Shown: positions 36-22,900 of the stretch, piece by piece
Numbering within the stretch: position 1 is the stretch's first letter
Layout of the letters: each line of letters starts with the position of its first letter
DNA from: Verrucomicrobiia bacterium
Lineage (GTDB): Bacteria > Verrucomicrobiota > Verrucomicrobiia > Limisphaerales > JAYPXF01
Assembly (NCBI GenBank): GCA_016779125.1
Contig: JADHOF010000007.1
Span: forward strand, 1-34,066
DNA: 34,066 nt
Reading direction: 5' to 3'
The notes under the pieces: generated by a model
Seen by the model: only the letters and a program-made list of their open reading frames with translations
What the model was told of the DNA's origin: nothing
Database searches by the model: none
Program-made: the position numbers and the translations under genes

Positions 36-473
36 ATGAAACTCGTATCCAACCCGAACCACCGCCGCCGCCAGGGCTTTACGCTCGTGGAATTGTTGCT
101 CGTCCTCGTCATTCTCGGCGCGCTCGCCGCGATCGTCGTTCCGAAATTCTCAGGTCGCTCCGAGCAGGCCAAACTCGTGTCGGCGCAGACGCAGATCTCC
201 GGTTTTGAAACCGCGTTGAACTCCTTCGAGGTCGACAACGGATTTTATCCGCAATCGAAGGACGGCCTTGGCGCTCTCGTCGCCGCGCCGAGCAATGCGC
301 AGAACTGGCGCGGGCCTTACATGAAGGATGTGCCTCTGGATCCGTGGGGCGCGGCCTACGTTTACGAGAACCCCGGCAAGATGAACGCCTCCGGTTTCGA
401 TATCTACTCCATGGGGCCCGACGGACGTGCCGCCACGGAGGACGACATCACGAACTGGAGCCGAACAAACTAG
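36..473 (+). CDS. gspG: Type II secretion major pseudopilin GspG
   Basis: GspG is the major pseudopilin of the T2SS. It is processed and N-methylated by a prepilin peptidase and polymerises into the short periplasmic pseudopilus that drives substrates through the secretin. The 145-residue product has a short basic leader, the cleavage motif G/FTLVE with Glu at +5, and one hydrophobic helix. It then shows the family's soluble signature: YPQSKDGLGAL, WRGPYMKDVPLDPWG, FDIYSMGPDG and a C-terminal acidic stretch (ATEDDITNW) matching the calcium-binding loop. Length and motifs fit canonical GspG, so this is not a type IV pilin. It is the first gene seen of a T2SS operon and has a good ribosome binding site. 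The GspE and GspF genes that often precede gspG are not in the window. Confidence 0.96.
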   Translation: MKLVSNPNHRRRQGFTLVELLLVLVILGALAAIVVPKFSGRSEQAKLVSAQTQISGFETALNSFEVDNGFYPQSKDGLGALVAAPSNAQNWRGPYMKDVPLDPWGAAYVYENPGKMNASGFDIYSMGPDGRAATEDDITNWSRTN

Positions 474-489
474 GATTCGCCCGGTCACA

Positions 490-1035
490 ATGAAGCCCGA
501 CCCGCAAATGCCCGCACGACGCGGTCGAGTCTCCCTCGACGCGACTCGTTGGCGTCGGGCACCGGGCTTCACGCTGATCGAGCTGATTCTGGTCATGGGC
601 GTTCTGGCGACACTGGCGGCGGTGATCGTGCCCAGCCTGTCGAGCTTCGTGAAAGGGCGCGATATTTCGCAGGAAGGCCTTCGCTTTGTGGCGCTCACCC
701 ACTTCGCCCGGAACGAGGCGATCTCCACGGGGATTGCCCAGACTCTCTGGGTGGATCCGCGTGGGAACGCGTACGGTCTGCGCGAGGCTCCCGGATTCCG
801 CCAGAACACCAACGCCGCGCGAAGTTATCCCTTGAACGCGAAGCTTGAGTTCCAGCTTGATCCAAACGCCGGCCAGGCCTTTGGCGAGTTTGCGATTCGT
901 TTCCTGCCGGATGGAGAGATTGAGGAGGGCAGTTTGACGAATCTCGCGATCGAGCGGCCGAATGACGAGCGCCTTTGGATTGCGCTTTCAACGAACGGGT
1001 TCAACTACGAAATCGCCGGCAATGAACGTCTGTAA
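490..1035 (+). CDS. gspH: Type II secretion minor pseudopilin GspH-like
   Basis: This is a minor pseudopilin, probably the GspH/FimT type that links the tip complex to the GspG shaft. The product is about 181 residues. A basic leader of roughly 30 residues is followed by the cleavage motif PG/FTLIELILV with Glu at +5 and one hydrophobic helix. A beta-rich C-terminal part follows, including the stretch IRFLPDGE that resembles the conserved F.pdG motif of GspH. The ATG at 490 is preferred because it lies 16 nt after gspG. An in-frame ATG at 427 would overlap gspG, and one at 508 is also possible. The 3' end overlaps gspI by 14 nt. The H assignment rests on gene order and general features, so pseudopilin is certain but H is probable. 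Confidence 0.85.
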   Translation: MKPDPQMPARRGRVSLDATRWRRAPGFTLIELILVMGVLATLAAVIVPSLSSFVKGRDISQEGLRFVALTHFARNEAISTGIAQTLWVDPRGNAYGLREAPGFRQNTNAARSYPLNAKLEFQLDPNAGQAFGEFAIRFLPDGEIEEGSLTNLAIERPNDERLWIALSTNGFNYEIAGNERL

Positions 1036-1429
1036 GACAACACGCCGCCGGGCCGGATTCACCTTCGCCGAGATCCTCGCGGCGATGTTGTTCCTTGGTC
1101 TGGTGATCCCCGTCGCGATGCAGGCGGTGCGAATCGCGAGTGACGCGGGGACGATGGCCAGCCGTCGCTCGATCGCGACCCGGCTTGGGGACGCCAGGCT
1201 GACCGAGCTGGCGATCACGGACGAGTGGCGGACAGGCACGCAGGCGGGGCAGTTTGACCAGCCTTATCAGGACTATCGCTGGGAGATCCGATCCGAGAAC
1301 TGGACCGAGCTTGGCATGATGCAGCTCTCGATGGTGGTGACTTTCAAGGTGCGGCAGCGGGATGCCCGGGTGATTTTGACCACCCTTGTGCCGGAGACGC
1401 AAACAACCGGCGCGGGGCAGACGCCATGA
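1022..1429 (+). CDS. gspI: Type II secretion minor pseudopilin GspI-like
   Basis: This is a minor pseudopilin of 135 residues, the usual size for GspI, which nucleates the pseudopilus tip complex with GspJ and GspK. The leader KTTRRRAG is followed by FTFAEILAAM, giving Glu at +5 after Gly cleavage, and by a hydrophobic helix. The remainder (ATRLGDARLTELAI, then IRSENW and a VVTFKVRQ strand) resembles the GspI fold. The ATG at 1022 lies inside the end of gspH with a 14-nt overlap in another frame. The end overlaps gspJ by ATGA. The position between H and J supports the letter assignment. Confidence 0.88.
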   Translation: MNVCKTTRRRAGFTFAEILAAMLFLGLVIPVAMQAVRIASDAGTMASRRSIATRLGDARLTELAITDEWRTGTQAGQFDQPYQDYRWEIRSENWTELGMMQLSMVVTFKVRQRDARVILTTLVPETQTTGAGQTP

Positions 1430-2178
1430 AGCTGCGCCGCCAAACATCCGATCGTGCGGGGTTCTCCCTGCTGGAGCTGATTGTGGCGTCGTTCATGTTT
1501 GCCATCGTCATGGCTGCGGTCGCGACGGCGTTTTTTGGCGCGCACAAGTTGAGGGCGACCAACGAGGCCGATCTCGCGGGCGTTCATGGCATTCGCCGCG
1601 CGATTGAATACATGAAGCGCGATTTTCGGTCCGGCACGGTTCCGGCGACGAATGACACGACTCAGATTGTCACGGGCGACACCACGGGCACCGAGACGAA
1701 CGTCTTCACTTTCTCAGGTGCCATGATGACGACCGCGAGCACGTCGGGCGGAGCGATCGGCTCCACGGCTCTCGAATTTTGCACGGCGACCGGACTTCGA
1801 CTCGCCGACGAGCCATGGGGGGACATTCAGAGGGTGACCTATTACCTGCGGTCCCCGCTGAGTGCTCAAGCCGATGTCGGCAACGAACTGGTGCGCGGCG
1901 TCTCGCGCAACCTATCGCCGGGGCTGGAATCGGATTATGGGGAGATGGTCTTGTTGAGCGGCGTGTCGCAGCTGGTTTTTGAATTTTGGACCGGCACGGA
2001 GTGGGTCGATTACTGGGATTCGACAACCTTTGATCCGGCCGCGCCCTTGGCGGTTCGCGCGACGCTGATCATGGCGACGACGAACAATCTTCCGCCGCCG
2101 GCCTATCAGGTCGCCGTACCGTTTTCGGTCGAAGCCCGCACCAATCTGGTTCAGTCCGCCACGGGAGGCGCCACATGA
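1426..2178 (+). CDS. gspJ: Type II secretion minor pseudopilin GspJ-like
   Basis: This is a minor pseudopilin of 250 residues, in the size range of GspJ, a tip-complex component. The cleavage motif is G/FSLLELIVA with Glu at +5, followed by a hydrophobic helix and the typical GspJ segment IRRAIEYMKRDFRS. The rest is beta-rich, with a conserved-looking LVFEFWTGTEWVDYWDS stretch near residue 185. It is rich in Thr, Ala and Gly in the middle (residues 65-105). It starts by a 4-nt ATGA overlap with gspI and ends by a 4-nt ATGA overlap with gspK. Confidence 0.88.
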   Translation: MKLRRQTSDRAGFSLLELIVASFMFAIVMAAVATAFFGAHKLRATNEADLAGVHGIRRAIEYMKRDFRSGTVPATNDTTQIVTGDTTGTETNVFTFSGAMMTTASTSGGAIGSTALEFCTATGLRLADEPWGDIQRVTYYLRSPLSAQADVGNELVRGVSRNLSPGLESDYGEMVLLSGVSQLVFEFWTGTEWVDYWDSTTFDPAAPLAVRATLIMATTNNLPPPAYQVAVPFSVEARTNLVQSATGGAT

Positions 2179-3518
2179 GGGTTTCGATCTCCAATGCGCG
2201 CGGCTCGGCGCTTGTCCTCGTGCTGTGGGTCTCGTTCGGGCTGGTCAGTCTTGCGATCTATTTTGGTCACGGCATGTCGATGGAATTGAAGGCGGCGTCC
2301 AATTCCGAGGCGGGCGTTCAGGCTGAACAGGCGATCGAAGGCGCGGTCCGCTATGTGAAGTACCTGCTGGCCAATCTCCCGTCGCAGGGGCGCCTGCCCG
2401 AGCCGGATCTTTATGTCACGGAAGCGGCCGAGGTGGGGGAGGCTTTTTTTTGGATCACCGGGCGTGACCCGGCCGCAGTCGATATGACCCGTCCCTATTT
2501 CGAACTGATCGACGAGTCTGGAAAACTGAACCTGAACACCGCGCTGTACACGAATCTCATGGAGCTGCCCTTCATGACGGTCGAGCTGGCGGATGCGATC
2601 ATTGATTGGCGGGATGCGGACGACGAGCCGCGAAGCTCCGGTGCTGAGAGCGACGTTTACCTGCGATACAATCCGCCGATGTACGCGAAAAACGCGCCTT
2701 TCGAGTCGATTGAGGAACTGCGGATGCTCAACGGTGCCACCGAGGAACTCCTCTACGGCGAGGACGCGAACGGGAACGGGATCCTCGATCCGAACGAGGA
2801 TGACGGCGACGCCTCGCCGCCGAGTGACAATGCCGACGGGCGGCTTGATTTCGGCATTATGGAATATGTCACGGTGTGGAGTCGCGAGGGCAACCTGCAG
2901 ACAAACGGGGAACCGAGGCTGATCCTGCCCGCGTTGGCGGGGACGCAGGGATCGCAGGCCGCATTGACGGCCATTCAGGGATGGTTCACGACGAATCTGA
3001 CAGAAGACCGCTTCAACACTCTGCGCCCGGCCTTGACCCAGGCGACCAATTTGGTGGACCTCTACATCCGCTCCGGCAACACCTTGGATGAATTCGCCGA
3101 ATATGACGACGTGCTCACCATGAGCACCAACGCGATCGAGGGGCTGGTGAACGTGAACACCGCCTCGGCAGCGGTCTTGAACACCTTGCCCGGGGTGGAG
3201 GTGAACGACGCGGAGTCGCTCGTTGCCTATCGCGACACGAACCCGTCGGCATTGCGCAGCGTGGCGTGGATCACCGAGGTGTTGGGGCAGGACGTGGCCC
3301 GCCGCTTGGGGGGGCTGATCACCGACAAAGGCTTTCAATACATGGCCGATATCTCGGCGGTCGGTCGTGGCGGTCGGGGGTATCGTCGCAGCCGGATGGT
3401 GTTCGACATCAGCGAGGATCATCCCAAGATCGTGCATCGCCGGGATGACAGCCGATCTGGATGGGCTCTGGGTGTGGAAACGCGCGAGGCGCTGCTGGCG
3501 CTTCGCGGGCAACAATGA
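2175..3518 (+). CDS. gspK: Type II secretion minor pseudopilin GspK-like
   Basis: GspK caps the pseudopilus tip and is the one pseudopilin that normally lacks the +5 glutamate. Here the N-terminus is ARG/SALVLVLWVSFGLV, which matches that pattern. At 447 residues it is somewhat longer than many GspK proteins. The region around residues 115-150 (LIDESGKLNLNTA, then AIIDWRDADDEPR) is the family signature. Two helix-hairpin-helix-like SAM segments are visible, one near residues 175-190 (PFESIEELRMLNG) and one near 320-360 (VNVNTASAAVLNTLPGV). Between them lies an EF-hand-like acidic loop (DANGNGILDPNED). The gene is coupled to gspJ and gspL by ATGA overlaps. Confidence 0.93.
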   Translation: MRVSISNARGSALVLVLWVSFGLVSLAIYFGHGMSMELKAASNSEAGVQAEQAIEGAVRYVKYLLANLPSQGRLPEPDLYVTEAAEVGEAFFWITGRDPAAVDMTRPYFELIDESGKLNLNTALYTNLMELPFMTVELADAIIDWRDADDEPRSSGAESDVYLRYNPPMYAKNAPFESIEELRMLNGATEELLYGEDANGNGILDPNEDDGDASPPSDNADGRLDFGIMEYVTVWSREGNLQTNGEPRLILPALAGTQGSQAALTAIQGWFTTNLTEDRFNTLRPALTQATNLVDLYIRSGNTLDEFAEYDDVLTMSTNAIEGLVNVNTASAAVLNTLPGVEVNDAESLVAYRDTNPSALRSVAWITEVLGQDVARRLGGLITDKGFQYMADISAVGRGGRGYRRSRMVFDISEDHPKIVHRRDDSRSGWALGVETREALLALRGQQ

Positions 3519-4936
3519 TGAAGCGCGGAAAACAAACCAATTCGATTCTGGGCCTGACACTGGACGGACGACGTCTGGAGGGAGCTTTGCTGAAGCGCGG
3601 GCGGGACGGTTCCAGGGTGCATGCCGTCGCTTCGACGGAACTCGGCATCGAGCCTTTGGAGGGCGAGCCGGAGCTTGTCGCGGGTGAGATCGGGGACCGT
3701 CTCGCCGCGAACGATCTCAAGGAGAAGCATTGCATCGTCGGCCTGCCGCTTGATTGGTTGCTTACCTCCATGATCCGGCTGCCGGACATGCCGGAGGAAC
3801 ACATGGACGGATTTATCCGCCTACAGGCGGAGAAGAGCTTTCCGCTCTCGCTCAGCGATTTGTGTCTGAGCGTTTCGCGTTTCGATGTTGGCGCGGGAGA
3901 ACGGCACGCCCTGCTTACCGCCGTTCCCCGCCGGCGTGTTCTGGATTTGGAGTCGAGGCTGCAGCTGGCGGGGCTGAAGCCCTTGAGTTTTTCGCTGGGC
4001 GTTGTCGCCTTGCAGGAAGCGTTGGGCGCGCCGGGTCTTTCAATTTTCGTGTCCACCGAGCAGGTGTCGATTGTCGTTTCGACGGCCGCCGGTCCTGTCT
4101 GTATCCGATCCTTGCCGGATGCCTGGTGCGGGGATGCTCAGGTTCGCCGGATCGATGCCCGGATAGTCGGGCGGGAGTTGCGGATCACGCTGGGTCAGCT
4201 GCCTGACGAGGTCCGCGCCGGTCTGACGAAGGTTCGGCTGCTTGGCTCACCGGGATTGCTGGCCAATCTGGAAAGCGATCTGAAGCCCCGGGTCGAAGCT
4301 TTGGGGTTGGTCTTTGAGGCGATGCCGGAGCAGTCCGTGAACGGTGTTCCTTTGACGATGCCATTCAGCGGCGTGGTCCCTGCGGCGGCCGCATTGGCTG
4401 CCCGATATTTGGAGAATCCAAAGGCGACCCTTGAGTTCCTGCCTCCAAAGGTGAATCGGTGGCAGGTGCTGGCCACGCGTCTGGCTTCGCGCAAGTCAGG
4501 CATACTGGGAGCGATCGCCGGAGTGATCCTCGTCACCACCCTGATCGCGTTTTTCTGGCAGGGTAGGCAGCTCTCCAATCTGGAATCCGAATGGAACGGC
4601 ATGAAAAAGCAGGTGGCCGAATTGGAGGATCTGCAGAGCCGCATTCGAAAGTTCAGGCCATGGTACGATGAAACGCAGCCGACCCTTCGGATGATGCGGG
4701 CGATCAGCCGGTCTTTTCCAGCCAACGGAGACATCACGGCGAAAAGCCTCGAAGTCCGACCGGGGGGCAAGATCACGATCGCGGGTTCCGCCCGGCACAA
4801 CAAGGCGTTGCTGGATCTTTCGGAACGTTTATCGAAGGTGGAAGGAGTGTTTGACGTGAAACTGGAAAATTTGAGAGGCGTTGGCCCGATACAGTTCAGC
4901 ATTGTCTGCCGATGGCAGCCGGGAGGTGCCCAATGA
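3515..4936 (+). CDS. gspL: Type II secretion inner-membrane protein GspL-like (PilM-PilN type fusion)
   Basis: GspL joins the cytoplasmic ATPase GspE to the inner-membrane platform. The 473-residue product has a cytoplasmic actin-like region of about 325 residues. It starts SILGLTLDGRRLEGALLKRG and includes an IVGLPLDWLLTSMIRLPDMP strand-loop, as in PilM/GspL. One transmembrane segment lies near residues 330-348 (ILGAIAGVILVTTLIAFFW). A short coiled coil (QLSNLESEWNGMKKQVAELE) follows, then a periplasmic ferredoxin-like C-terminus (GDITAKSLEV, KITIAGSA, VEGVFDVKLENL) like PilN. The ATG at 3515 gives an ATGA overlap with gspK; the next codon, at 3518, is also ATG. The end overlaps the next gene by ATGA. 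Confidence 0.88.
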   Translation: MMKRGKQTNSILGLTLDGRRLEGALLKRGRDGSRVHAVASTELGIEPLEGEPELVAGEIGDRLAANDLKEKHCIVGLPLDWLLTSMIRLPDMPEEHMDGFIRLQAEKSFPLSLSDLCLSVSRFDVGAGERHALLTAVPRRRVLDLESRLQLAGLKPLSFSLGVVALQEALGAPGLSIFVSTEQVSIVVSTAAGPVCIRSLPDAWCGDAQVRRIDARIVGRELRITLGQLPDEVRAGLTKVRLLGSPGLLANLESDLKPRVEALGLVFEAMPEQSVNGVPLTMPFSGVVPAAAALAARYLENPKATLEFLPPKVNRWQVLATRLASRKSGILGAIAGVILVTTLIAFFWQGRQLSNLESEWNGMKKQVAELEDLQSRIRKFRPWYDETQPTLRMMRAISRSFPANGDITAKSLEVRPGGKITIAGSARHNKALLDLSERLSKVEGVFDVKLENLRGVGPIQFSIVCRWQPGGAQ

Positions 4937-5460
4937 ACCGGGAGAAACTGCTGATGACGGTGGCCGGCTCGGTGTTTGGTCTGTTGATGCTCGACAAGGT
5001 GCTCCTGGGGCCGCTGGTCGATTCGTGGAAGGATCGGGCAAAAAAAATCTCCTACCTGACCCAGGACGTCACGAAGGGACGCCAGCTCGTGGCCCGGGAC
5101 TCCGCGATACGGGATCGCTGGCAAGAGATGCGCGAACGGGCCTTGCCCGCGAGCCGGTCCGAATCGGAGTCGGCCCTGCTCACCCGGCTGGATGACTGGA
5201 GTCGTGCGGCCAAACTGAAGCCTTCGCAGATGCTCCCTGCTTGGCGCGCGGAAGACGACCACGTGAAGCTGAACTGCCGAATCGAAGCGACCGGGGACAT
5301 TGAGGCTGTAATGCGCTTCGTCTACGATCTGGACGGTGAGAAACTGGCCGTGAAGGTGGAGTCATTTGACCTTTCGAGTCAGGACAAACAAGGGCGGAAT
5401 CTGGTGCTGGACATGACGCTCAGCGGACTGGAACTGCCCCGGGAGGAAGGAAAACGATGA
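4933..5460 (+). CDS. gspM: Type II secretion inner-membrane protein GspM/PilO-like
   Basis: This is a bitopic membrane protein of 175 residues. It has a short cytoplasmic N-terminus, one transmembrane segment at about residues 8-26 (MTVAGSVFGLLMLDKVLLG) and a predicted coiled coil around residues 30-70. It ends in a ferredoxin-like periplasmic domain (VKLNCRIEATGDIEAVMRFV, then LAVKVESFDLSS). That architecture and its place right after gspL fit GspM/PilO, which dimerises with GspL in the inner membrane. Primary sequence is weakly conserved in this family, so the assignment leans on topology and gene order. The start codon at 4933 overlaps the gspL stop by ATGA, and the end overlaps the next start the same way. 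Confidence 0.78.
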   Translation: MNREKLLMTVAGSVFGLLMLDKVLLGPLVDSWKDRAKKISYLTQDVTKGRQLVARDSAIRDRWQEMRERALPASRSESESALLTRLDDWSRAAKLKPSQMLPAWRAEDDHVKLNCRIEATGDIEAVMRFVYDLDGEKLAVKVESFDLSSQDKQGRNLVLDMTLSGLELPREEGKR

Positions 5461-6047
5461 CCGAGTCGATCAAGGTGATGGCTTTCGGATGTTTGGGTGC
5501 GCTTTTGTTGACCGGCGCGGGCACTTCCGCTTCCGGGGCCGACAAGGCGTCCGGTCCCGCCCGTGACGAGTTCAAGGACATCGTGGTTTACAACATATTT
5601 GATCCGGACCGAGGGCCCCGGCCGGAACCGAAACCAAAGGCCCCGGTCAAACAGGATCCGCCGCCGCCCAAGGTGGAGCGCTTGACGCTTACCGGGGTCC
5701 TGAAGTCGGATCACGGTGCCTACGGATTTTTTGACGGCACCGATCGTGATTTTCAGAAAGTCGGCAAACCCGGCGATCAGGTCGGCGTTTTCAAGGTAAT
5801 CAAGATCGGGATCGACTCCGCTGACCTCGGCGCAGGCACGAATCATTTTGTTCTCAGAATCGGCGGTGAACTCAGCAGAACCGGTGAAGAACCGTGGAAG
5901 GTGAGTGGCACGACCTCGTTTTCCGGCAGCGGGGCCGCGCCGGCCTCGGCATCTGCCTCCTCCGCCGGAGCCAGTGATCCTGCGGATGAGGAACGTCGGA
6001 AGAAGCTGCTGGAATTGCTCAAAAAGAAACGCGAATCAGGAAAATGA
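5457..6047 (+). CDS. GspC/PilP-like periplasmic homology-region protein
   Basis: The 196-residue product carries the hallmark of the GspC homology-region/PilP domain, the motif VVYNIFDPDRGP near residues 43-54. A small beta-barrel follows (VERLTLTGVLKSDHGAYGFF, then FQKVGKPGDQVGVFKVIKI) at about residues 75-120. This domain bridges the inner-membrane platform to the N0 domain of the secretin. The N-terminus (residues 5-28) looks like a cleavable signal peptide rather than the long-lived membrane anchor of classical GspC, and no lipobox Cys is placed as in PilP. The C-terminus has a Ser/Ala-rich linker and a strongly basic helix (ERRKKLLELLKKKRE). Its place just before the secretin genes and after GspM agrees with the role. 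It is coupled on both sides by ATGA. Confidence 0.75.
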   Translation: MTESIKVMAFGCLGALLLTGAGTSASGADKASGPARDEFKDIVVYNIFDPDRGPRPEPKPKAPVKQDPPPPKVERLTLTGVLKSDHGAYGFFDGTDRDFQKVGKPGDQVGVFKVIKIGIDSADLGAGTNHFVLRIGGELSRTGEEPWKVSGTTSFSGSGAAPASASASSAGASDPADEERRKKLLELLKKKRESGK

Positions 6048-6871
6048 AAACGACAACCCTTACACTACTTGGTGCCATCCTGCTCGGGACCGGCTCGCTC
6101 GGGGCGCAGACTGCGCCCGCCCCGAAACCGGTCGCTCCGGCTGCGAGCACACCTCCTCCGGCAGCCGGGAAGATCACGCTCAACTTCAAGGCGACGCCCC
6201 TCTCCACCGTGTTGGAATACCTCAGCAAGGAGGCGGGCTACGCCGTGGTGATCGACGCAAAGATTGAGGGAACGATCGACGCGATCAGCGCCCAGCCTTT
6301 GACCCATGATGAGGCGTTTGACGTTATCAACTCGATTCTCGCCACCAAGGGTTACACTGCAATTCGCAACGGGCGGATTCTCACGATCGTGAATGTCAGC
6401 GACGCGAAGAAAAGGATGATCCCCGTGAAGCAGGGGGCTGATCCCGACAAGATTCCGTCCAATGACGAGATCGTCACACAGATCATGCCGATTCGTTACG
6501 CCAACGCTCAGCAGTTGATCGCCAATCTGCAACCCCTGCTTGACGAGACCTCCACGATCAGCGCGAACGAGGCGAGCAACGCCCTGATTCTCACCGGCAC
6601 GCAGTCCAACATCCGTCGCATGGCGCAGATCATCAAGGCGCTCGACACCAGCATCTCAGGCATCACGGCGATGCGCGTGTATCCGATGCAGAACGCGCAG
6701 GCGACCGACGTCGCCAACATCATCAATCAGGTCGTCGGCGGCCAGAGCAGCAACAACAGCGGGCGGGGAAACACCAGTTCCCGGGGTGGAGGCAGTAGCG
6801 GGGGCAGTGGACCGAGCCCGGCGGATATCATGAGCCGAATCCGAAGTCGGATGAGCGGAGGTGGACGATGA
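6044..6871 (+). CDS. Secretin part 1: N0-N1 and first half of N2 (split GspD)
   Basis: This is the first of three consecutive genes that together cover one GspD-type outer-membrane secretin. The 275-residue product has a signal peptide ending GSLGAQ (cleavage near residue 22) and a Pro/Ala-rich linker. An N0 domain follows at about 45-125 (KITLNFKATPLSTVLEYLSK, ending RILTIVNV). N1 lies at about 145-205 (IMPIRYANAQQLIANLQPLL, then NALILTGTQSNIRRMAQIIK). It then starts a further N-domain (MRVYPMQNAQATDVANIINQ). That domain stops in a Gly/Ser-rich tail, and its second half is missing here but is found in the next gene. The start overlaps the GspC-like gene by ATGA. The stop codon is genuine, and the next protein has its own signal peptide, so this is a split gene rather than an obvious frameshift. 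Confidence 0.85.
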   Translation: MKTTTLTLLGAILLGTGSLGAQTAPAPKPVAPAASTPPPAAGKITLNFKATPLSTVLEYLSKEAGYAVVIDAKIEGTIDAISAQPLTHDEAFDVINSILATKGYTAIRNGRILTIVNVSDAKKRMIPVKQGADPDKIPSNDEIVTQIMPIRYANAQQLIANLQPLLDETSTISANEASNALILTGTQSNIRRMAQIIKALDTSISGITAMRVYPMQNAQATDVANIINQVVGGQSSNNSGRGNTSSRGGGSSGGSGPSPADIMSRIRSRMSGGGR

Positions 6872-6909
6872 AAGACGTGGCTGCCGGCAAAATCTCAAAT
6901 GAGGACTTC

Positions 6910-7758
6910 ATGAAGACACCTATTTCAAAAATGAGCAGGATGCTGATACTGGCGATTGGTTTGGCCGTTGTCGGATCGGCCGAGGCGCAGTTTCCCGGTT
7001 TTGGTGGGGCACCCGGAGGAGGCTCGCCCGGTGGTCGAACCCGCACCGGAGGAAGCAGCTCGGGAGGGAGTGGTTCAAGCGCCGCGTTGCAGGCGCAGTC
7101 GCGCGTGTTGGCGGTCGCTGACGAGCGTTCCAACTCGGTCATCATCATCGCGCCGGAAGACCAATTGCCGATGATCGAGGAGTTGATGAAGGAACTGGAC
7201 ACCAACGTTGACGACGTGACCGAGGTGAAGGTCTTCAAACTCGTCAATGCCGACCCGACGGAAATGGCTGAGCAATTGAATCAATTGTTCGGCAGCAGCA
7301 CGCAGGGAAATTCCCAGCAGAACCAGTCCAGCTTTGGTCCCGGTTTTGTTTTTGGCCGTCTTGGCGGCGGGGCTCCGCAGGGGAACAACAGCAACTCGCG
7401 CGGACTTCGAAGCGATCAGAAGGTGGTGTCCGTGCCCGACGCCCGCACGGCGTCGCTGATCGTCAGCGCGCCGCGTCAGATGATGCCTTCGATCGAGCAG
7501 ATGGTGAAGCAGCTCGACTCCAGCACGGCCAAGCGACAGAACGTGTTTGTCTATTCGCTGGAATACGCGGATGTGAACAACGTGGCGACCGTACTACGCG
7601 GGATGTTCGACGAGAATCAACGCAACCTCAGCTCGCAGCAGTCGCAGGAGTCCGCCTTGGAGCAACGACGCGGCACTTTCGGTTCCGCTGGAGCCTCCAG
7701 CGGCACGATCGGCGCCACTGCGGGCGGGGGTGGTGGTGGGGCCATCGGACGTCGTTGA
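6910..7758 (+). CDS. Secretin part 2: second half of N2, N3, first half of a further N-domain
   Basis: This is the middle piece of the split secretin, about 282 residues. The ATG at 6910 is preferred because GAGGA lies at 6901-6905 and the product then begins with a standard signal peptide ending GSAEAQ. An in-frame ATG at 6868 that overlaps the previous stop is the alternative. The mature protein starts with a Gly-rich stretch and then the second half of an N-domain (RVLAVADERSNSVIIIAPED). A complete N-domain follows (VKVFKLVNADPTEMAEQLNQ, Gly/Asn/Gln-rich loop, VVSVPDARTASLIVSAP). Last comes the first half of another (NVFVYSLEYADVNNVATVLR), ending in Gln/Ser/Gly-rich sequence and GRR. No pore-forming secretin domain is present. 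Confidence 0.83.
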   Translation: MKTPISKMSRMLILAIGLAVVGSAEAQFPGFGGAPGGGSPGGRTRTGGSSSGGSGSSAALQAQSRVLAVADERSNSVIIIAPEDQLPMIEELMKELDTNVDDVTEVKVFKLVNADPTEMAEQLNQLFGSSTQGNSQQNQSSFGPGFVFGRLGGGAPQGNNSNSRGLRSDQKVVSVPDARTASLIVSAPRQMMPSIEQMVKQLDSSTAKRQNVFVYSLEYADVNNVATVLRGMFDENQRNLSSQQSQESALEQRRGTFGSAGASSGTIGATAGGGGGGAIGRR

Positions 7759-7780
7759 GTGATCGAAACCAAGAATTGTC

Positions 7781-8959
7781 ATGAGATATATCAAACATTC
7801 TCCACGTCTGTTGTTCGTCATCGTTTCTCTGCTGGCGTCGCAGGCATTGGTCTTGGCGCAGTTTCGTCCTGGTGGTGGATTCGGCGGAGGAACCGGCGGT
7901 GGGCGTGGCACGACTTCCAGCCAAGGCACCCGGACCTACACGGGCAATGGCCAGATTGGTCAGGCGTTGATCATGCCGGACCCCGAAACCCGCCGGATCA
8001 TTGTGATCGCGGACGATGATACTGCGGCGCATATCAGCCAGGTCATCACCAACCTCGACCAGCCGAAGCCGCAGGTGTTGATCAAGGTCGTGTTTGTTGA
8101 GGTCACGCACAACACGGGGTCCGATATCGGCACCACGATCAACCGCCTCCAGGCCGAACCCTCCAATTCGTCGGCCGTGAGTTCGTTGACCACCGCGCTC
8201 GGAGCCGCGGGCACCCTCTCCACGGGCGGCACCTGGGGGCTCGTCGCGGGGGATTTGGACGTCGCGTTGAGGGCGGTTGCGGAGAACGGCAAGACGGAGG
8301 TGCTCTCCCGTCCGTCGATCCTGACGCGCAACAATCAGGAAGCCGTCATCACGGTCGGTCAGGAGGTGCCATTTGTGACGAACAGCCAGATCAACCAGCA
8401 GGGCAACACGATCAACACGGTCACCTATGAGGACGTCGGCATCATCTTGCGGGTGACGCCGTACATCACGCAGGGCGATTTGGTTGAAATGATTGTCGCG
8501 CCGGAGATCTCCTCCATCAGTTCGACATTGGTGACGATCAATCAAGGCGTGCAGCTTCAGGCCATCGACAAGCGCGCTGCGGAGACGGTGGTGGTGACCA
8601 AGCATGGGCAGACCATTGTCATCGGCGGACTGATGCAGACCCGCAAACAGGAGACGCGGCGCAAGGTGCCGGTGCTGGGCGACATTCCCCTGATCGGCTT
8701 CGCCTTCCGGCGCAAGGAGATGCAGGATGTCAAAACCGAGCTGTTGATCTTCCTGACCCCTTACGTCATTCAACGCCCGGAGCAGGTTGCGGACGTCACG
8801 GCGGACGAGGCCTCGAAGTCTTCCTTCGGCAAGGGCACGTTCACGGAGGACCAGATCGAGACCTTCATGGAGACCATTCCCGTGGAGGCCAAGGATTCTT
8901 CCTCCGCGAGTGCGAGCAAGAAGCCGTTTTTGCCGATCAACATCCCGTTGGACTATTGA
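7781..8959 (+). CDS. Secretin part 3: half N-domain plus C-terminal secretin pore domain
   Basis: This is the pore-forming piece of the split GspD-type secretin, 392 residues. The signal peptide ends QALVLAQ and is followed by a Gly-rich stretch (RPGGGFGGGTGGGRG). The second half of an N-domain comes next (ALIMPDPETRRIIVIADDDT, ISQVITNLDQPKPQV). The secretin domain runs from about residue 100 (VLIKVVFVEVTHN). It shows the classic segments VLSRPSILTRNNQEAVITVG, VTYEDVGIILRVTPYI, ETVVVTKHGQTIVIGGLM, KVPVLGDIPLIGFAFR and TELLIFLTPYVI. A charged Ser-rich C-terminal tail may act as the pilotin-binding S-domain, though no pilotin is visible. It lies 22 nt after part 2 and ends the operon; 71 nt separate it from the response regulator. 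Confidence 0.92.
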   Translation: MRYIKHSPRLLFVIVSLLASQALVLAQFRPGGGFGGGTGGGRGTTSSQGTRTYTGNGQIGQALIMPDPETRRIIVIADDDTAAHISQVITNLDQPKPQVLIKVVFVEVTHNTGSDIGTTINRLQAEPSNSSAVSSLTTALGAAGTLSTGGTWGLVAGDLDVALRAVAENGKTEVLSRPSILTRNNQEAVITVGQEVPFVTNSQINQQGNTINTVTYEDVGIILRVTPYITQGDLVEMIVAPEISSISSTLVTINQGVQLQAIDKRAAETVVVTKHGQTIVIGGLMQTRKQETRRKVPVLGDIPLIGFAFRRKEMQDVKTELLIFLTPYVIQRPEQVADVTADEASKSSFGKGTFTEDQIETFMETIPVEAKDSSSASASKKPFLPINIPLDY

Positions 8960-9030: not shown

Positions 9031-9711
9031 ATGCGGGTATTACTGGTTGAAGATTCGGAGCGGTTGCGACGATCCCTGACGACGGCGCTGAAGTCGTCCG
9101 GTTACGCGGTAGACGGGGCCGGGGACGGTGAGGAAGGGTTGTGGCTGGCGCGGGCACATGATTATGACGTGTTGGTGCTGGATATCATGCTCCCGGGGCT
9201 CGATGGACTGAGCCTGCTTGCCTCGCTGCGAAAAGAGGGCAACGAAACTCCGGTCTTGTTCCTGACCGCGCGCGACGCCGTCGAGGACCGCGTCGCTGGA
9301 TTGAGGCAGGGTGCTGATGACTACCTGGTCAAGCCCTTTGCCTTGGAGGAACTGCTGGCGCGTGTGGAAACGTTGACCCGACGCCGCTACCAGAAACGCA
9401 CGTCGATGGTAAGGGTCGGCGATCTGGAATTGAATTCTTCCGCGAAGACCGTTTCCCGCGCGGGGAATGGGATTCAGCTGGCCGCGCGGGAGTTTGCCCT
9501 GCTCGAGTACCTGATGTTGAGATCCGGGCAGGTGGTCTCGCGTACGGAGATCGAGGAGCATATCTATGACGATCTGGTGTCGCCGATGAGCAATGTTGTC
9601 GATTCCGCCATCTGCGCGTTGAGGAAACAGATTGCGGTCGGTTCGGATTCGCGGCCTTTGATTCACACCCGTCGGGGCCAGGGTTATGTGTTGGAGGATC
9701 GCGCGACGTGA
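9031..9711 (+). CDS. OmpR/PhoB-family response regulator
   Basis: This is the DNA-binding regulator of a two-component system, 226 residues. The receiver domain occupies residues 1-115, with acidic pocket E7-D8, phospho-acceptor D51 in VLVLDIMLPG, switch T79 in LFLTARD and K101 in YLVKPFA. The winged-helix effector domain (about 130-223) shows LAAREFALLEYLMLRSGQVV and VDSAICALRKQI, ending in the wing motif IHTRRGQGYVLE. All catalytic residues are present. Sequence style is closest to the QseB/PmrA/CusR subgroup. The end overlaps the kinase start by GTGA, so the pair is co-translated. The gene begins 71 nt after the secretin. Whether it controls the T2SS operon cannot be told from sequence. 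Confidence 0.95.
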   Translation: MRVLLVEDSERLRRSLTTALKSSGYAVDGAGDGEEGLWLARAHDYDVLVLDIMLPGLDGLSLLASLRKEGNETPVLFLTARDAVEDRVAGLRQGADDYLVKPFALEELLARVETLTRRRYQKRTSMVRVGDLELNSSAKTVSRAGNGIQLAAREFALLEYLMLRSGQVVSRTEIEEHIYDDLVSPMSNVVDSAICALRKQIAVGSDSRPLIHTRRGQGYVLEDRAT

Positions 9712-11243
9712 AAAGCATTCGGACCCGTCTGCTGCTATGGTTGCTTCCCGGGATGGGGTTGCTTTGGGGAGCGGCGGGAGTGGTCTTGTTTCAGGCGGTA
9801 AAGCGTGGGTTGGAGCTGCAGATAGACTCTGACTTGCGAAATCTTGTGGGTCCGGCCCGGTTTATCGCCCGAGCCCATTCGCTTGGCATTCCGCAGCAAC
9901 AGTTTCGAGGGTCGGATCTCGCAGGCTTCAACGATCCGGATGGCCGGGTTTATTTCGCTGCATGGAGGAGCGCCGAAGACACCCCCGTTCGTTCGAAGAG
10001 TTTGGGCGATCGAACTCTTCCTCGCCCCAAGCGCTTCGCGTCGCAGGGGGTGTTTCGGGATTACGAACTCGCGAACGGGGAATGGGTGCGGACCCTGTCC
10101 GTCCGCTCCCAGAATCCGCCCCCGGGAAGGCCGGTCGGTCCGCGCGGGGGCGGTGGTCCGCCGGGGCGGGATGAGTTTTCGCGAATGGAAACGCGGGAGC
10201 CGGGTCGCGGCGGGCCACCCCCTGAGGACGGCCGCCCCCGAGCTTGGCCGCTTCGGCCGGGACGCGAAGGTGGTGCGGAGGGCGGCCCCGGACACGAGTC
10301 TGTCGATCTCGTGTTGGCGAAGAGTCGGAGGCGGATCGATGAGACGTTGCAGTTGGTGCTTGGCGGGATCGGGTTTACCGGGATTGTCGCCGCGCTCGCG
10401 TCGATGCTGCTTGTCCGGCTCGCGCTGGAGTCGGGACTTCGGCCCTTGCGGAATTTGGGGGATCAGACGGCCGGAATTGATACGGGAGCATTGGATCATC
10501 GATTTGCAACCGATATCTTGCCGGTTGAATTGAGGCCGATCGGCGTTCGCCTCAACGATCTATTGGCCCGCCTGCAGCAGGGCTTTGAACGGGAGCGGCG
10601 CTTTGGGGCCGATCTCGCCCATGAATTACGGACACCGGTGGCGGAACTGCGGTCAATGGCGGAGGTCGCGATGAAATGGCCGGAACAGACGACGCCGGAA
10701 AACTATCAGGACCTGCTCGCCATCTCGGAACGGATGCAGGGCACGATCGAAAACCTGCTGCGGCTTGCGCGGCTCGAAAACCGGGCGTCCGTCCGGAGGG
10801 ATGAAACGGTTCGCCTGTCCGAGTTCTTGTCGGAATGCTGGAAGCCATTTTCCGAACGCGCGGCTGGGCGGGGATTGCGGGTCCGTTTTTCGGTTTCCCC
10901 TGAAATCTCCCTCGCGACCGATCCGAATCTCCTGCGGACAATTGCCTCGAATCTTCTCTCCAACGCCGCCGAATATGCCGAGGCTGATTCGGAAGTGACG
11001 GTTGAGTCCGCGGGTTCCGGGCCGGTGCTGTCCGTTTGCAATGCGGCTCCGCATCTTTCGGACGACGATATTCCGCACCTTTTCGAACGCCTGTGGCGAT
11101 TGGATCGCTCCAGGACCAGCGGCAGCCATTGCGGATTGGGGCTGGCGTTGGCCAAAGCCTGCGCGGAGGCGCTGGACATGCGGCTGACGGCGGAACTGAA
11201 GGACGGGCGTTTGAAGATCTCTCTGACACGCCTGGCTCAGTGA
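9708..11243 (+). CDS. Sensor histidine kinase (CusS/QseC-like) with Gly/Pro-rich sensor region
   Basis: This is the membrane histidine kinase partner of the preceding regulator, 511 residues. It starts with GTG at 9708, overlapping the regulator stop. The first transmembrane helix is at about residues 8-28 and the second at about 215-240, with a HAMP-like linker to about 290. The phospho-acceptor is H305 in DLAHELRTPVAELR. The N-box is SNLLSNAAEYAE. The nucleotide-binding lid region reads VCNAAPHLSDDDIPHLFERL and then GLGLALAKACAEAL; Asn in place of the usual DxGxG Asp resembles the CusS-type subgroup. Between the membrane helices, residues 136-200 are an odd run rich in Gly, Pro and Arg (for example PVGPRGGGGPPGRDE). 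The signal sensed is unknown. Confidence 0.92.
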   Translation: MKSIRTRLLLWLLPGMGLLWGAAGVVLFQAVKRGLELQIDSDLRNLVGPARFIARAHSLGIPQQQFRGSDLAGFNDPDGRVYFAAWRSAEDTPVRSKSLGDRTLPRPKRFASQGVFRDYELANGEWVRTLSVRSQNPPPGRPVGPRGGGGPPGRDEFSRMETREPGRGGPPPEDGRPRAWPLRPGREGGAEGGPGHESVDLVLAKSRRRIDETLQLVLGGIGFTGIVAALASMLLVRLALESGLRPLRNLGDQTAGIDTGALDHRFATDILPVELRPIGVRLNDLLARLQQGFERERRFGADLAHELRTPVAELRSMAEVAMKWPEQTTPENYQDLLAISERMQGTIENLLRLARLENRASVRRDETVRLSEFLSECWKPFSERAAGRGLRVRFSVSPEISLATDPNLLRTIASNLLSNAAEYAEADSEVTVESAGSGPVLSVCNAAPHLSDDDIPHLFERLWRLDRSRTSGSHCGLGLALAKACAEALDMRLTAELKDGRLKISLTRLAQ

Positions 11244-19957: not shown

Positions 19958-22900
19958 TCAAGGGCGTCGGAGGCGGAAGAACTGAAGGTTGGTCGATACG
20001 GTGTTCGTAAGGTAGAAGCGGTCTCCGACCAAGACGGGGGTTCCGATTGAGCTTTGCCAATTGGTGCCGCGAAGCGCCTCGCCATTCTTTTCCAACAGGA
20101 AACCCGGCCAGAAACCCGGCCATGATAGGACGAGTTCGTTGTTTCCATTCACCTGAACGGTGATGTTTGGAGGCGACACCAGACGGGTCACGAACGCGTT
20201 GTCCTGCCCTGTGCTGGTGGTGGAATTGCCGCCGGCCACCAGCGTGCCCCGGAAGCTGCCGGTGAACACCCCGTTGCCGAGTGCGTCAACGGCGATGCCG
20301 CGACCGCTTTCCCCGCCGATGTCGTCCCCGCCGGCCTGCTGCATGAATTCGACCGTGCCGTCGCGCCGCAGGCGCAGCGCGAAAATGTCGCTTGTGTCCG
20401 CGATGCTGACACTGCTCTGCGTGCCGAAGGTGGAATTCCCCTGATAGGATCCGGTGATGTAAATATTGCCCATCGGATCAATGGCCACGTCGTCGGCGCT
20501 GTCGCTGGACGCTCCTCCGAATCCCTGCGCCCAATGCAGACCTCCGGCACTGTTGAAACTGGCCGCGTAGGCGTCCGGCAAAAGCCCGCCTGTGCTGCGA
20601 AGAACGAGTCCTCCAAAATCGTTTGTCCGGCTGAATTGGCCGACCGCCACCAGACCGTCGGGGCCGGTGGCCAAACCGCGAACATCGTCCTGCCCGGCGG
20701 TTCCAATCTGCTTTATCCAGACGAAGCTGCCATCGGCGAGGTATTTCGCGATGAAACCGTCTTGGAAACCGCGATTGGACAGGTTCGTATTCGCCACGGC
20801 GAAAGTGAGGCTGTTGAATCGTCCGCCGAGATACACGCCGCCGGAGGGATCGGTTGCCACGGCGACGGCCGCGTCCTGATTCGCCGCGTTGCCGCCACCG
20901 GATTTGCGAGCCCAGACGGGGTTGCCGGCGAGGTCGTAGCGGGCCAGAAGGACGCTGCCCGTGGAGGTCAGCGGGATTCCGGCAAAAGTCGTGATGAACG
21001 ACTGGCCGGCGACATACAGGTTTGTGCCGCCCAGCGCGATGCTATAGCCGTAGTCAGAATTGGCGACAACACCCTCGGATCGCAGCCAGATCGGCGTGCC
21101 CGCGTTGTTGAATCGTCCCACAAACAGATCCGCGAAGGAGGCTGCGTCCTGGTTGGTCAGATTCTGTCCGCCGAAACTGGCGACGCCTTCGAATGAACCC
21201 GTGATGAAGAGGTCCCCGTTCGTGGTGACCACGATGTCGCTCGCGGAATCGTAGCCGGGTCCGCCGAAGCGTTTCGCCCAATCGACCCCCCCGTCGGGTG
21301 AGAAACGGACCAGGAAGATGTCGTCACGTCCGGCGCTGACCAGTGTGTTGGTGCCGAAGGTGGCCGTTCCCTGAAAGGTGCCGACCGAGTAGACGGCTCC
21401 GGTTCCATCGACGCCGACCGCGTTGCCGCTATCCGCGCCGGCTCCGCCCAGGTTGCCAACCCACGGGAGCAACGCGCGTTCGAGCACGATCTCAACCCGG
21501 GCCAGTCGGCTGGTTGCCACGCCGAAGGCGTTGGAAAGTGCAACGGCGTAGAGGCCCACGTTCGCCTGCTGCAGGTTTGTGACGGAGAGCGTCGTGCCGG
21601 TTTCACCCGGCAGCGGGATTCCGTTTTGCATCCATTGATAGGTTATCGTCGGGCTGCCGATCGCGGCGACGGTCATGTCGAAGCGCCGGCCGATCGTCTG
21701 GAATTGGTTTTGTGGCTGGAGGGTGATGATGGGAGGCGAATCGACCGCCAGAGTGACCGGAGGATTTGTCGCCGAACCGAGGGCGTTCGTGACGATCACC
21801 GTGTACTGGCCGGCGTTTGTGAATTGCACGGCCGGGAAATGCAGATTCGCGGCGACAGCCGAGGGGATGATCTGCCCGTTGAACAGCCAGATGTAGTCGA
21901 ACGGCGGTTTGCCGGAAACGGAAACATCGAGATTAACCGTTTCGCCCACGCGAACCCGCAGGCCGGGAGTGATCGTGAAATTCGTGATCACAGGGGGGGT
22001 GGCGACGGAGAGATTGACCAGTCGACTGAAAATGGTCGCGTGCGCGTTTGCCACGATCACCTCGTAGTTGCCCGTGTTTGTGGCGACGACGTTCGTGAGG
22101 GAGAGCTGCGGGCCGGTCTGATTTGCAAGAGGCAGGCCGTTGTGACGCCACTGGTAAAAGAGCGGTCGCTCGCCTCCCGCGAGGATTTCGAAAGACGCGG
22201 TCGCCCCTTTGTCCACCACGATATCGTTGGGTTGAAGGAAGACAAACGGGGTGGTGGACGACAGCACGGTCACCTGGGCGACACGCGACGTCACCGATCC
22301 GAGGATGTTGGTCACGATGACCTGATAGTCTGCGGAATCGGCCGAGGAAAGGGCGGGGAGAGAAAGGGTCGGGCCGTTGGCACCGGTGATCGCAGAGCCA
22401 TTCTTGTACCACTGGTAGGAGAAGGGGCGCGTGCCCAGGACATCCACTCCGAGTTGCTTGGTGTCCCCAAGTTTGGCGACGACGTCGCCCGGTTGCGACG
22501 CGATGGAGGGTGCGCCGGAACCGGATCCGGTGACAGTCCCGAACGCCCCCGAGTAAATCACGTTCGTGTTGATGGTGGGGATCGCGTTGCTGAGGCTGTT
22601 GATAATCGCGAAATTGCCGCTGGCTCCGTCAATTTGAAGAACGTGCCAATACCCCCCGTTTCCGACTGTCGGAGGAGTGATTGTCCCGACCAATCCCTTG
22701 TGGTTATAGACCTCCACTTTCGCCCCGTTGACGGGGAAGGTACCGACGCCGGCGGTTACGAATGTTGAGAAATCGTGAATCCAATAGCTGTATATGCCCG
22801 GAAGCACATTTGTGATGGTGATCGTTTCAGGGCCGAAACCAAATGTCGCATCGACGTCAAGACTCGCGAACGGATACGCCACCAGACTGCCGCGATTCGT

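Follow-up and report, generated by a model that had tools for sequence, protein, structure and literature searches.

A GspD secretin gene split into three separately exported pieces within its N-domains in Verrucomicrobiota

A bacterial secretin is described as a homo-oligomer, built of a single kind of chain. In the window, the 34,066-nucleotide stretch of DNA analysed here, the secretin GspD of a type II secretion system (T2SS) is instead encoded by three tandem open reading frames (ORFs) on the + strand, of 275, 296 and 392 aa, that overlap or abut. Each of the three products (D1, D2 and D3) carries its own export signal. The gene is split within N-domains, so that the pieces end in exactly complementary half-domains, and the arrangement is conserved and sits in an operon. 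Read together with predicted structures, the sequences make it likely that the three chains form one hetero-oligomeric channel by half-domain complementation, with the breaks placed in a long loop. The chains would assemble in trans, in roughly equal stoichiometry, and function as one channel.

The window is a whole contig of a 3.83 Mb MAG, 81% complete, whose nearest named relative is a Verrucomicrobiales MAG. The T2SS operon starts at the window's left edge, and D1, D2 and D3 occupy the place expected for gspD. The order of the operon's genes is conserved in relatives. GspE is found 8-9 kb upstream in three of these (G001, G073 and G414), which in the window is beyond the contig edge; the T2SS assignment rests on the G to M genes of the window, pseudopilins included, together with this upstream GspE. 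The protein encoded directly before D1 is presumably GspC, an identity taken from its conserved position, as Pfam gives no meaningful match, and it is the probable partner of the N0 domain of D1. The features are as follows, with a slash marking the cleavage site and RBM HMM denoting a profile of the ring-building domain.

36..5460, + strand: remainder of the T2SS operon, GspG, H, I, J, K, L-like and M (Pfam/NCBIfam; order same in relatives)
5457..6047, + strand: exported GspC-like protein, directly upstream of D1 (position conserved in nearly all loci)
6044..6871, + strand: gspD1, N0-N1-N2a with a Gly/Ser tail, 275 aa (ORF; Pfam N0 46-112, Secretin_N 145-202)
6044..6106, + strand: D1 signal peptide, ending SLGA/Q (direct reading; heuristic on relatives)
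6179..6379, + strand: N0 domain of D1 (PF21305, 3.5e-14)
6467..6652, + strand: N1, intact, loop insert absent (RBM HMM 1-62, 87.8 bits)
6662..6745, + strand: N2a, first half (beta-alpha) of ring domain N2 (RBM HMM positions 2-28)
6746..6868, + strand: Gly/Ser-rich C-terminal tail of D1, break 1 (sequence)
6868..7758, + strand: gspD2, N2b-N3-N4a, 296 aa (ORF; Pfam/NCBIfam matches)
6868..6987, + strand: D2 signal peptide, from 6868 or 6910, ending SAEA/Q (direct reading; relatives)
7108..7206, + strand: N2b, second half (beta-beta-alpha) of N2 (RBM HMM 30-62, 28.3 bits)
7213..7524, + strand: N3, intact ring domain (RBM HMM 1-62, 72 bits)
7306..7428, + strand: Gly/Asn/Gln loop within N3 (41-residue insert between HMM positions 29 and 30)
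7549..7620, + strand: N4a, first half of the last ring domain (RBM HMM 6-29)
7621..7755, + strand: low-complexity C-terminal tail of D2, break 2 (sequence)
7781..8959, + strand: gspD3, N4b-secretin barrel, exported, 392 aa (PF00263, 2.5e-49; TIGR02517 279-600)
7781..7858, + strand: D3 signal peptide, ending LVLA/Q (direct reading; heuristic on homologues)
7961..8062, + strand: N4b, second half of the last ring domain (RBM HMM 28-61)
8273..8773, + strand: secretin outer-membrane barrel domain (PF00263 1-169)

The original prediction of a GspD distributed over three exported proteins, each with a signal peptide of its own, is borne out by the ORFs, the Pfam/NCBIfam matches and direct reading alike. 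D1 holds the GspD-type N0, a Secretin_N domain and a half; D2 holds a half, a Secretin_N domain and a half; D3 holds a half and the secretin barrel, which matches the full PF00263 profile. All three match the GspD family model TIGR02517 (D1 1-190, D2 190-333, D3 279-600). The cut-off of this model is 351 bits; the best single protein scores 239, below it, and the joined pieces score 372, above it. Since no single piece reaches the family cut-off, GspD may be missed or labelled truncated in these phyla. The three pieces share 59-80% identity with their counterparts in a congeneric genome.

The breaks were placed with a home-made HMM of the ring-building domain (62 positions), trained on unsplit N1 and N3 domains. 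In N2, D1 covers positions 2-28 and D2 positions 30-62; in N4, D2 covers 6-29 and D3 28-61. The intact N3 of D2 carries its 41-residue Gly/Asn/Gln insert at 29/30, the point that matches both breaks. From this mapping, both breaks share one structural location: the loop that joins the first helix to the second strand. The training domains themselves carry inserts at 29/30, which favours placement of the break there by the aligner, an effect to which the separate half matches are less subject, and profile alignment to solved GspDs likewise opens at the N2 and N4 break points. The tail of D1 aligns with a Gly-rich loop, of median length 50 residues, that relatives with an unsplit N2 have in this domain. 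The label N4 is used here for the last N-domain, which stands where classical GspD has N3, the window protein having one extra ring-building domain. Three such domains, the classical number, are present in 14/86 loci and four in the others, and the break is always in the last. The HMM mapping and the 86/86 loci thus uphold the claim that the breaks lie within N-domains, in a variable Gly-rich loop that the intact N3 retains at the equivalent point. The description of the first half as helix-rich was right about a mid-domain break and loose in its wording, as the order is beta-alpha in the first half and beta-beta-alpha in the second. The N3 domain of pIV, the secretin of phage f1, has a disordered loop that is directed into the pore (PMC8563730).

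The chain ends created by the breaks, tails and heads alike, consist of 57-59% Gly+Ser+Asn+Gln. The ATG of D2 overlaps the stop codon of D1, and there is a second possible D2 start at 6910. By a rule that asks for a basic start, a hydrophobic core and small residues at -3 and -1, a signal peptide is present in 87/90 D3 homologues, the other three looking similar by eye, and in 5/5 full-length D2 homologues. A comparably hydrophobic stretch is found in 2% of intact N2 loops, 0% of intact N3 loops and 100% of split last domains.

D3 was searched for in 293 genomes of the same order (E <= 1e-58) and in a draw from the rest of the phylum. Close relatives occur in 171/293 of the former, most of them in open frames of about 370-500 aa, and in 7 more genomes of the latter; relatives are also found in Omnitrophota and Sumerlaeota. 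The neighbourhoods of about 95 loci were read. No unsplit, single-gene homologue is present among the 92 that could be classified, a few of which are duplicates. With the breaks common to the relatives as well, two of the three conditions under which the original prediction would fall do not hold. Genomes G032 and G008 have long single open frames, of 765 and 942 aa, that resemble unsplit genes, but these overlap gene 1 in another frame and were rejected. Across the 86 non-redundant loci, from Verrucomicrobiota, Omnitrophota and Sumerlaeota, the last N-domain is broken at HMM position 29/30 in 86/86, which exceeds chance.

This uniformity bears on the possibility that one continuous gspD has been cut up by assembly or sequencing error, or is a pseudogene in decay. 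The genome is an incomplete MAG, as noted, and frameshift-like overlapping frames do occur in two relatives (G141 and G233). However, identical breaks recur in 86 loci, new signal peptides stand at the junctions and the pieces remain 59-80% identical to those of the congener. Sequencing error is excluded because two of the split loci sit in single-contig genomes, and the chance that error or decay accounts for the split is negligible.

The break in N2 is rarer than that in the last N-domain. It falls at 29/30 in all six three-gene loci, namely the window, one locus of the same genus (G001), one of the same family (G002), G029, and G005 with G063. Two other candidate three-gene loci (L093 and L133) have breaks elsewhere and overlapping frames; they are probable frameshifts and were set aside. 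On a tree of 86 concatenated proteins, the three-gene state needs three changes, forced by supported branches, which is read here as three independent origins, all in the same N2 loop. Because the last domain is broken at 29/30 in 86/86 loci, the break before the barrel is common to the whole clade of T2SSs and old, and the N2 break is a later fission. The split is not peculiar to this genome: a wide clade shares the D3 break, and of the two breaks only that in N2 is recent. A tree of secretin domains puts the split ones on one side of a branch and the unsplit secretins of the same genomes on the other, with weak support (58/70).

A full-length GspD might also be made by stop codon readthrough or frameshifting. 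In 25 loci two of the genes are in-frame, with a single stop between open frames, as readthrough would need. In most other loci, the window included, the genes are in different frames, and a signal peptide would end up mid-way in the fusion; readthrough was rejected on the number of gene pairs in different frames, and we see next to no chance for either process.

The in-frame neighbours among the relatives were used for AlphaFold2, read through the stop as one tandem chain; the output assessed was secondary structure with pLDDT. In the D1+D2 tandem of a congeneric locus (L047), N2a is predicted as a strand at 170-176 and a helix at 182-194, and N2b as strands at 291-295 and 300-306 and a helix at 310-320. 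The pLDDT is mostly about 90 in the N2 halves and mostly around or <50 in the stretch between them. In a two-gene pair from a single-contig genome (L086), N4a is predicted at 393-398 and 404-415 and N4b at 512-516, 521-526 and 528-541, with pLDDT about 90 in the halves and mostly <50 in between. Foldseek matched XcpQ N0-N1-N2 structures, which are ~210 residues long, over ~317 columns with ~100 gap columns. Alignment of both N2 halves with the linker as the gap would give this pattern; full GspDs were also matched. The halves are exactly complementary in the HMM mapping, as originally proposed, and their predicted secondary structure is confident on both sides. This lends support to complementation in the predicted fold and falls short of proof, as AlphaFold2 given a tandem may simply recall the fold.

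Complementary halves could still be used in another way. The pieces might assemble with the halves swapped onto a neighbouring protomer, or stay as separate stacked rings, which we consider unlikely. Ring symmetry (15-mers in classical GspD) permits pairing within or between protomers, and a domain swap would look identical in sequence. For N4a against N4b, mean-field DCA showed no covariation signal (AUC 0.37-0.45), on ~26-35 effective sequences and with held-out intact-domain controls that were also weak. Separate rings, on the other hand, fit poorly with half-domains that are split exactly at the loop and keep the hydrophobic profile of intact domains (split N4 versus intact N2, r = 0.78; versus intact N3, r = 0.76).

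It is also conceivable that D3 alone is the pore and that D1 and D2 act outside the channel, for instance as adaptors, substrate receptors or soluble rings in the periplasm. The mitochondrial GspD is a truncated pore that works in vitro (PMC8134430), and the rhizobial rhcC1 is expressed apart and suspected of another function (PMC3973906). In the present case, however, the genes lie together in the operon at the gspD place, and every complete locus has retained N0 together with both half-domains, whereas orphan half-domains at chain ends would need no lasting complementarity. A pore of D3 alone is accordingly improbable.

In the hetero-oligomeric channel proposed here, each piece would pass Sec by its own signal peptide, which is then cleaved. 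The pieces would meet in the periplasm, and the barrel protein would insert in the outer membrane. Ring domain N2 would be formed by the D1 tail and the D2 head, and N4 by the D2 tail and the D3 head, the beta-alpha part from one chain being completed by the beta-beta-alpha part from the next. The N0 domain on D1 would meet the GspC-like protein encoded just upstream. Both breaks lie in the long Gly/Ser/Asn loop that links the first helix to the second strand and tolerates insertions, and the free Gly-rich ends would be placed where classical secretins have lumenal loops. The composite picture of a three-chain channel with two-chain N2 and N4 rings, lumenal Gly/Ser ends, a pre-barrel split that is ancestral across phyla and three convergent fissions is on the whole likely. 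If it is true, it would show that a channel of megadalton size can be held together by half-domain complementation. The split might allow assembly in stages, loosen the gate or have no particular effect, and the gate of separable parts suggested in the original prediction is a conjecture. Repeated breakage at one loop makes the role of that loop testable.

Classical GspDs (PulD, XcpQ, EpsD and E. coli GspD) share with the split form the N0, the ring-building N-domains, the barrel, the T2SS operon and, in N2 and N3, loops at matching points. In the classical form a single chain carries one signal peptide and three ring-building domains, where two or three polypeptides and usually four domains are found here. 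No report of a split bacterial GspD was found in the literature searched, with most subscription papers outside its reach. The original prediction knew of no secretin of such build, but split secretins are on record. The type III (T3SS) secretin of rhizobia, RhcC1/RhcC2 with RhcC3 in B. elkanii, is described as split in two or three genes, and so is that of some P. syringae, HrcIIC1/C2 (PMC3574062, PMC3973906). The rhizobial genes lie apart, and in pNGR234a, the one case checked, the break separates whole domains: NolW has a complete Secretin_N before it ends, and RhcC2 begins with its own pil_N and BON domains. The window breaks, in contrast, are intradomain and in a T2SS operon. Gene fission has also produced the TadB/TadC inner-membrane platform, a type IV filament component (PMC6668835), but there it separated two whole domains of a membrane protein.

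The mitochondrial T2SS has a split secretin, too. Its GspD is divided among several proteins, GspD, GspDL and GspDN1-3 (PMC8134430, PMC10128026), of which GspDN2 corresponds to the C-terminal and GspDN3 to the N-terminal half of a Secretin_N domain (PMC8134430). N-domains on separate polypeptides, some of them half-domains, are common to both systems. The mitochondrial system is eukaryotic, N0 was not found in it and its secretin domain is truncated, whereas the system described here is bacterial, with adjacent genes, N0 and all halves kept, and bacterial signal peptides. We assume that the two splits are independent, which would make this one a bacterial parallel to the fragmentation of mitochondrial GspD. 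The bacterial split GspD is a widespread variant, for which the mitochondrial one is a close conceptual precedent.

The unsplit secretins that stand closest to the split GspDs, by both sequence and tree among those tried, are a group of giant proteins. Their secretin domain is C-terminal and is 37–41% identical to D3, the third piece of the split GspD, and upstream of it lie many N-domain matches in tandem (at least 12 in the G001 protein). The giant secretins are about 3600–4100 residues long, and each is encoded in one open frame. They were found at the following loci:

Genome G003, contig C16 (locus L071): giant secretin
Genome G001, contig C79, 85075-95550: giant secretin
Genomes G002, G008, G028, G031 and G032: further giant secretins

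The two gspD open frames are separated by about 770 bases rather than adjacent in two of the relatives' loci, L069 (genome G039) and L118 (G082). The gap is large enough for one more gene.

Several other genes accompany the split gspD in the window:

5457-6047: GspC-like protein that carries a signal peptide
9031-11243: response regulator plus histidine kinase, immediately 3' of the secretin genes
19958-25366, minus strand: 1802-residue protein that has a choice-of-anchor C domain as well as delta-60 and SBBP repeats

The GspC-like gene keeps its position immediately 5' of gspD1 in nearly all loci, and its product has no meaningful match in Pfam. The 1802-residue repeat protein is perhaps exported.

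In accounts of the split rhizobial T3SS secretin, RhcC2 of plasmid pNGR234a is the C-terminal half:

L141, 41673-43097: rhcC2 (y4xJ)
L141, 41094-41660: neighboring gene, CpaD-like

RhcC2 has its own pil_N and BON domains, both complete. Because of these complete domains and the CpaD-like neighbor, it looks less like one half of a split gene and more like a secretin of the Tad type (CpaC) that the T3SS recruited.
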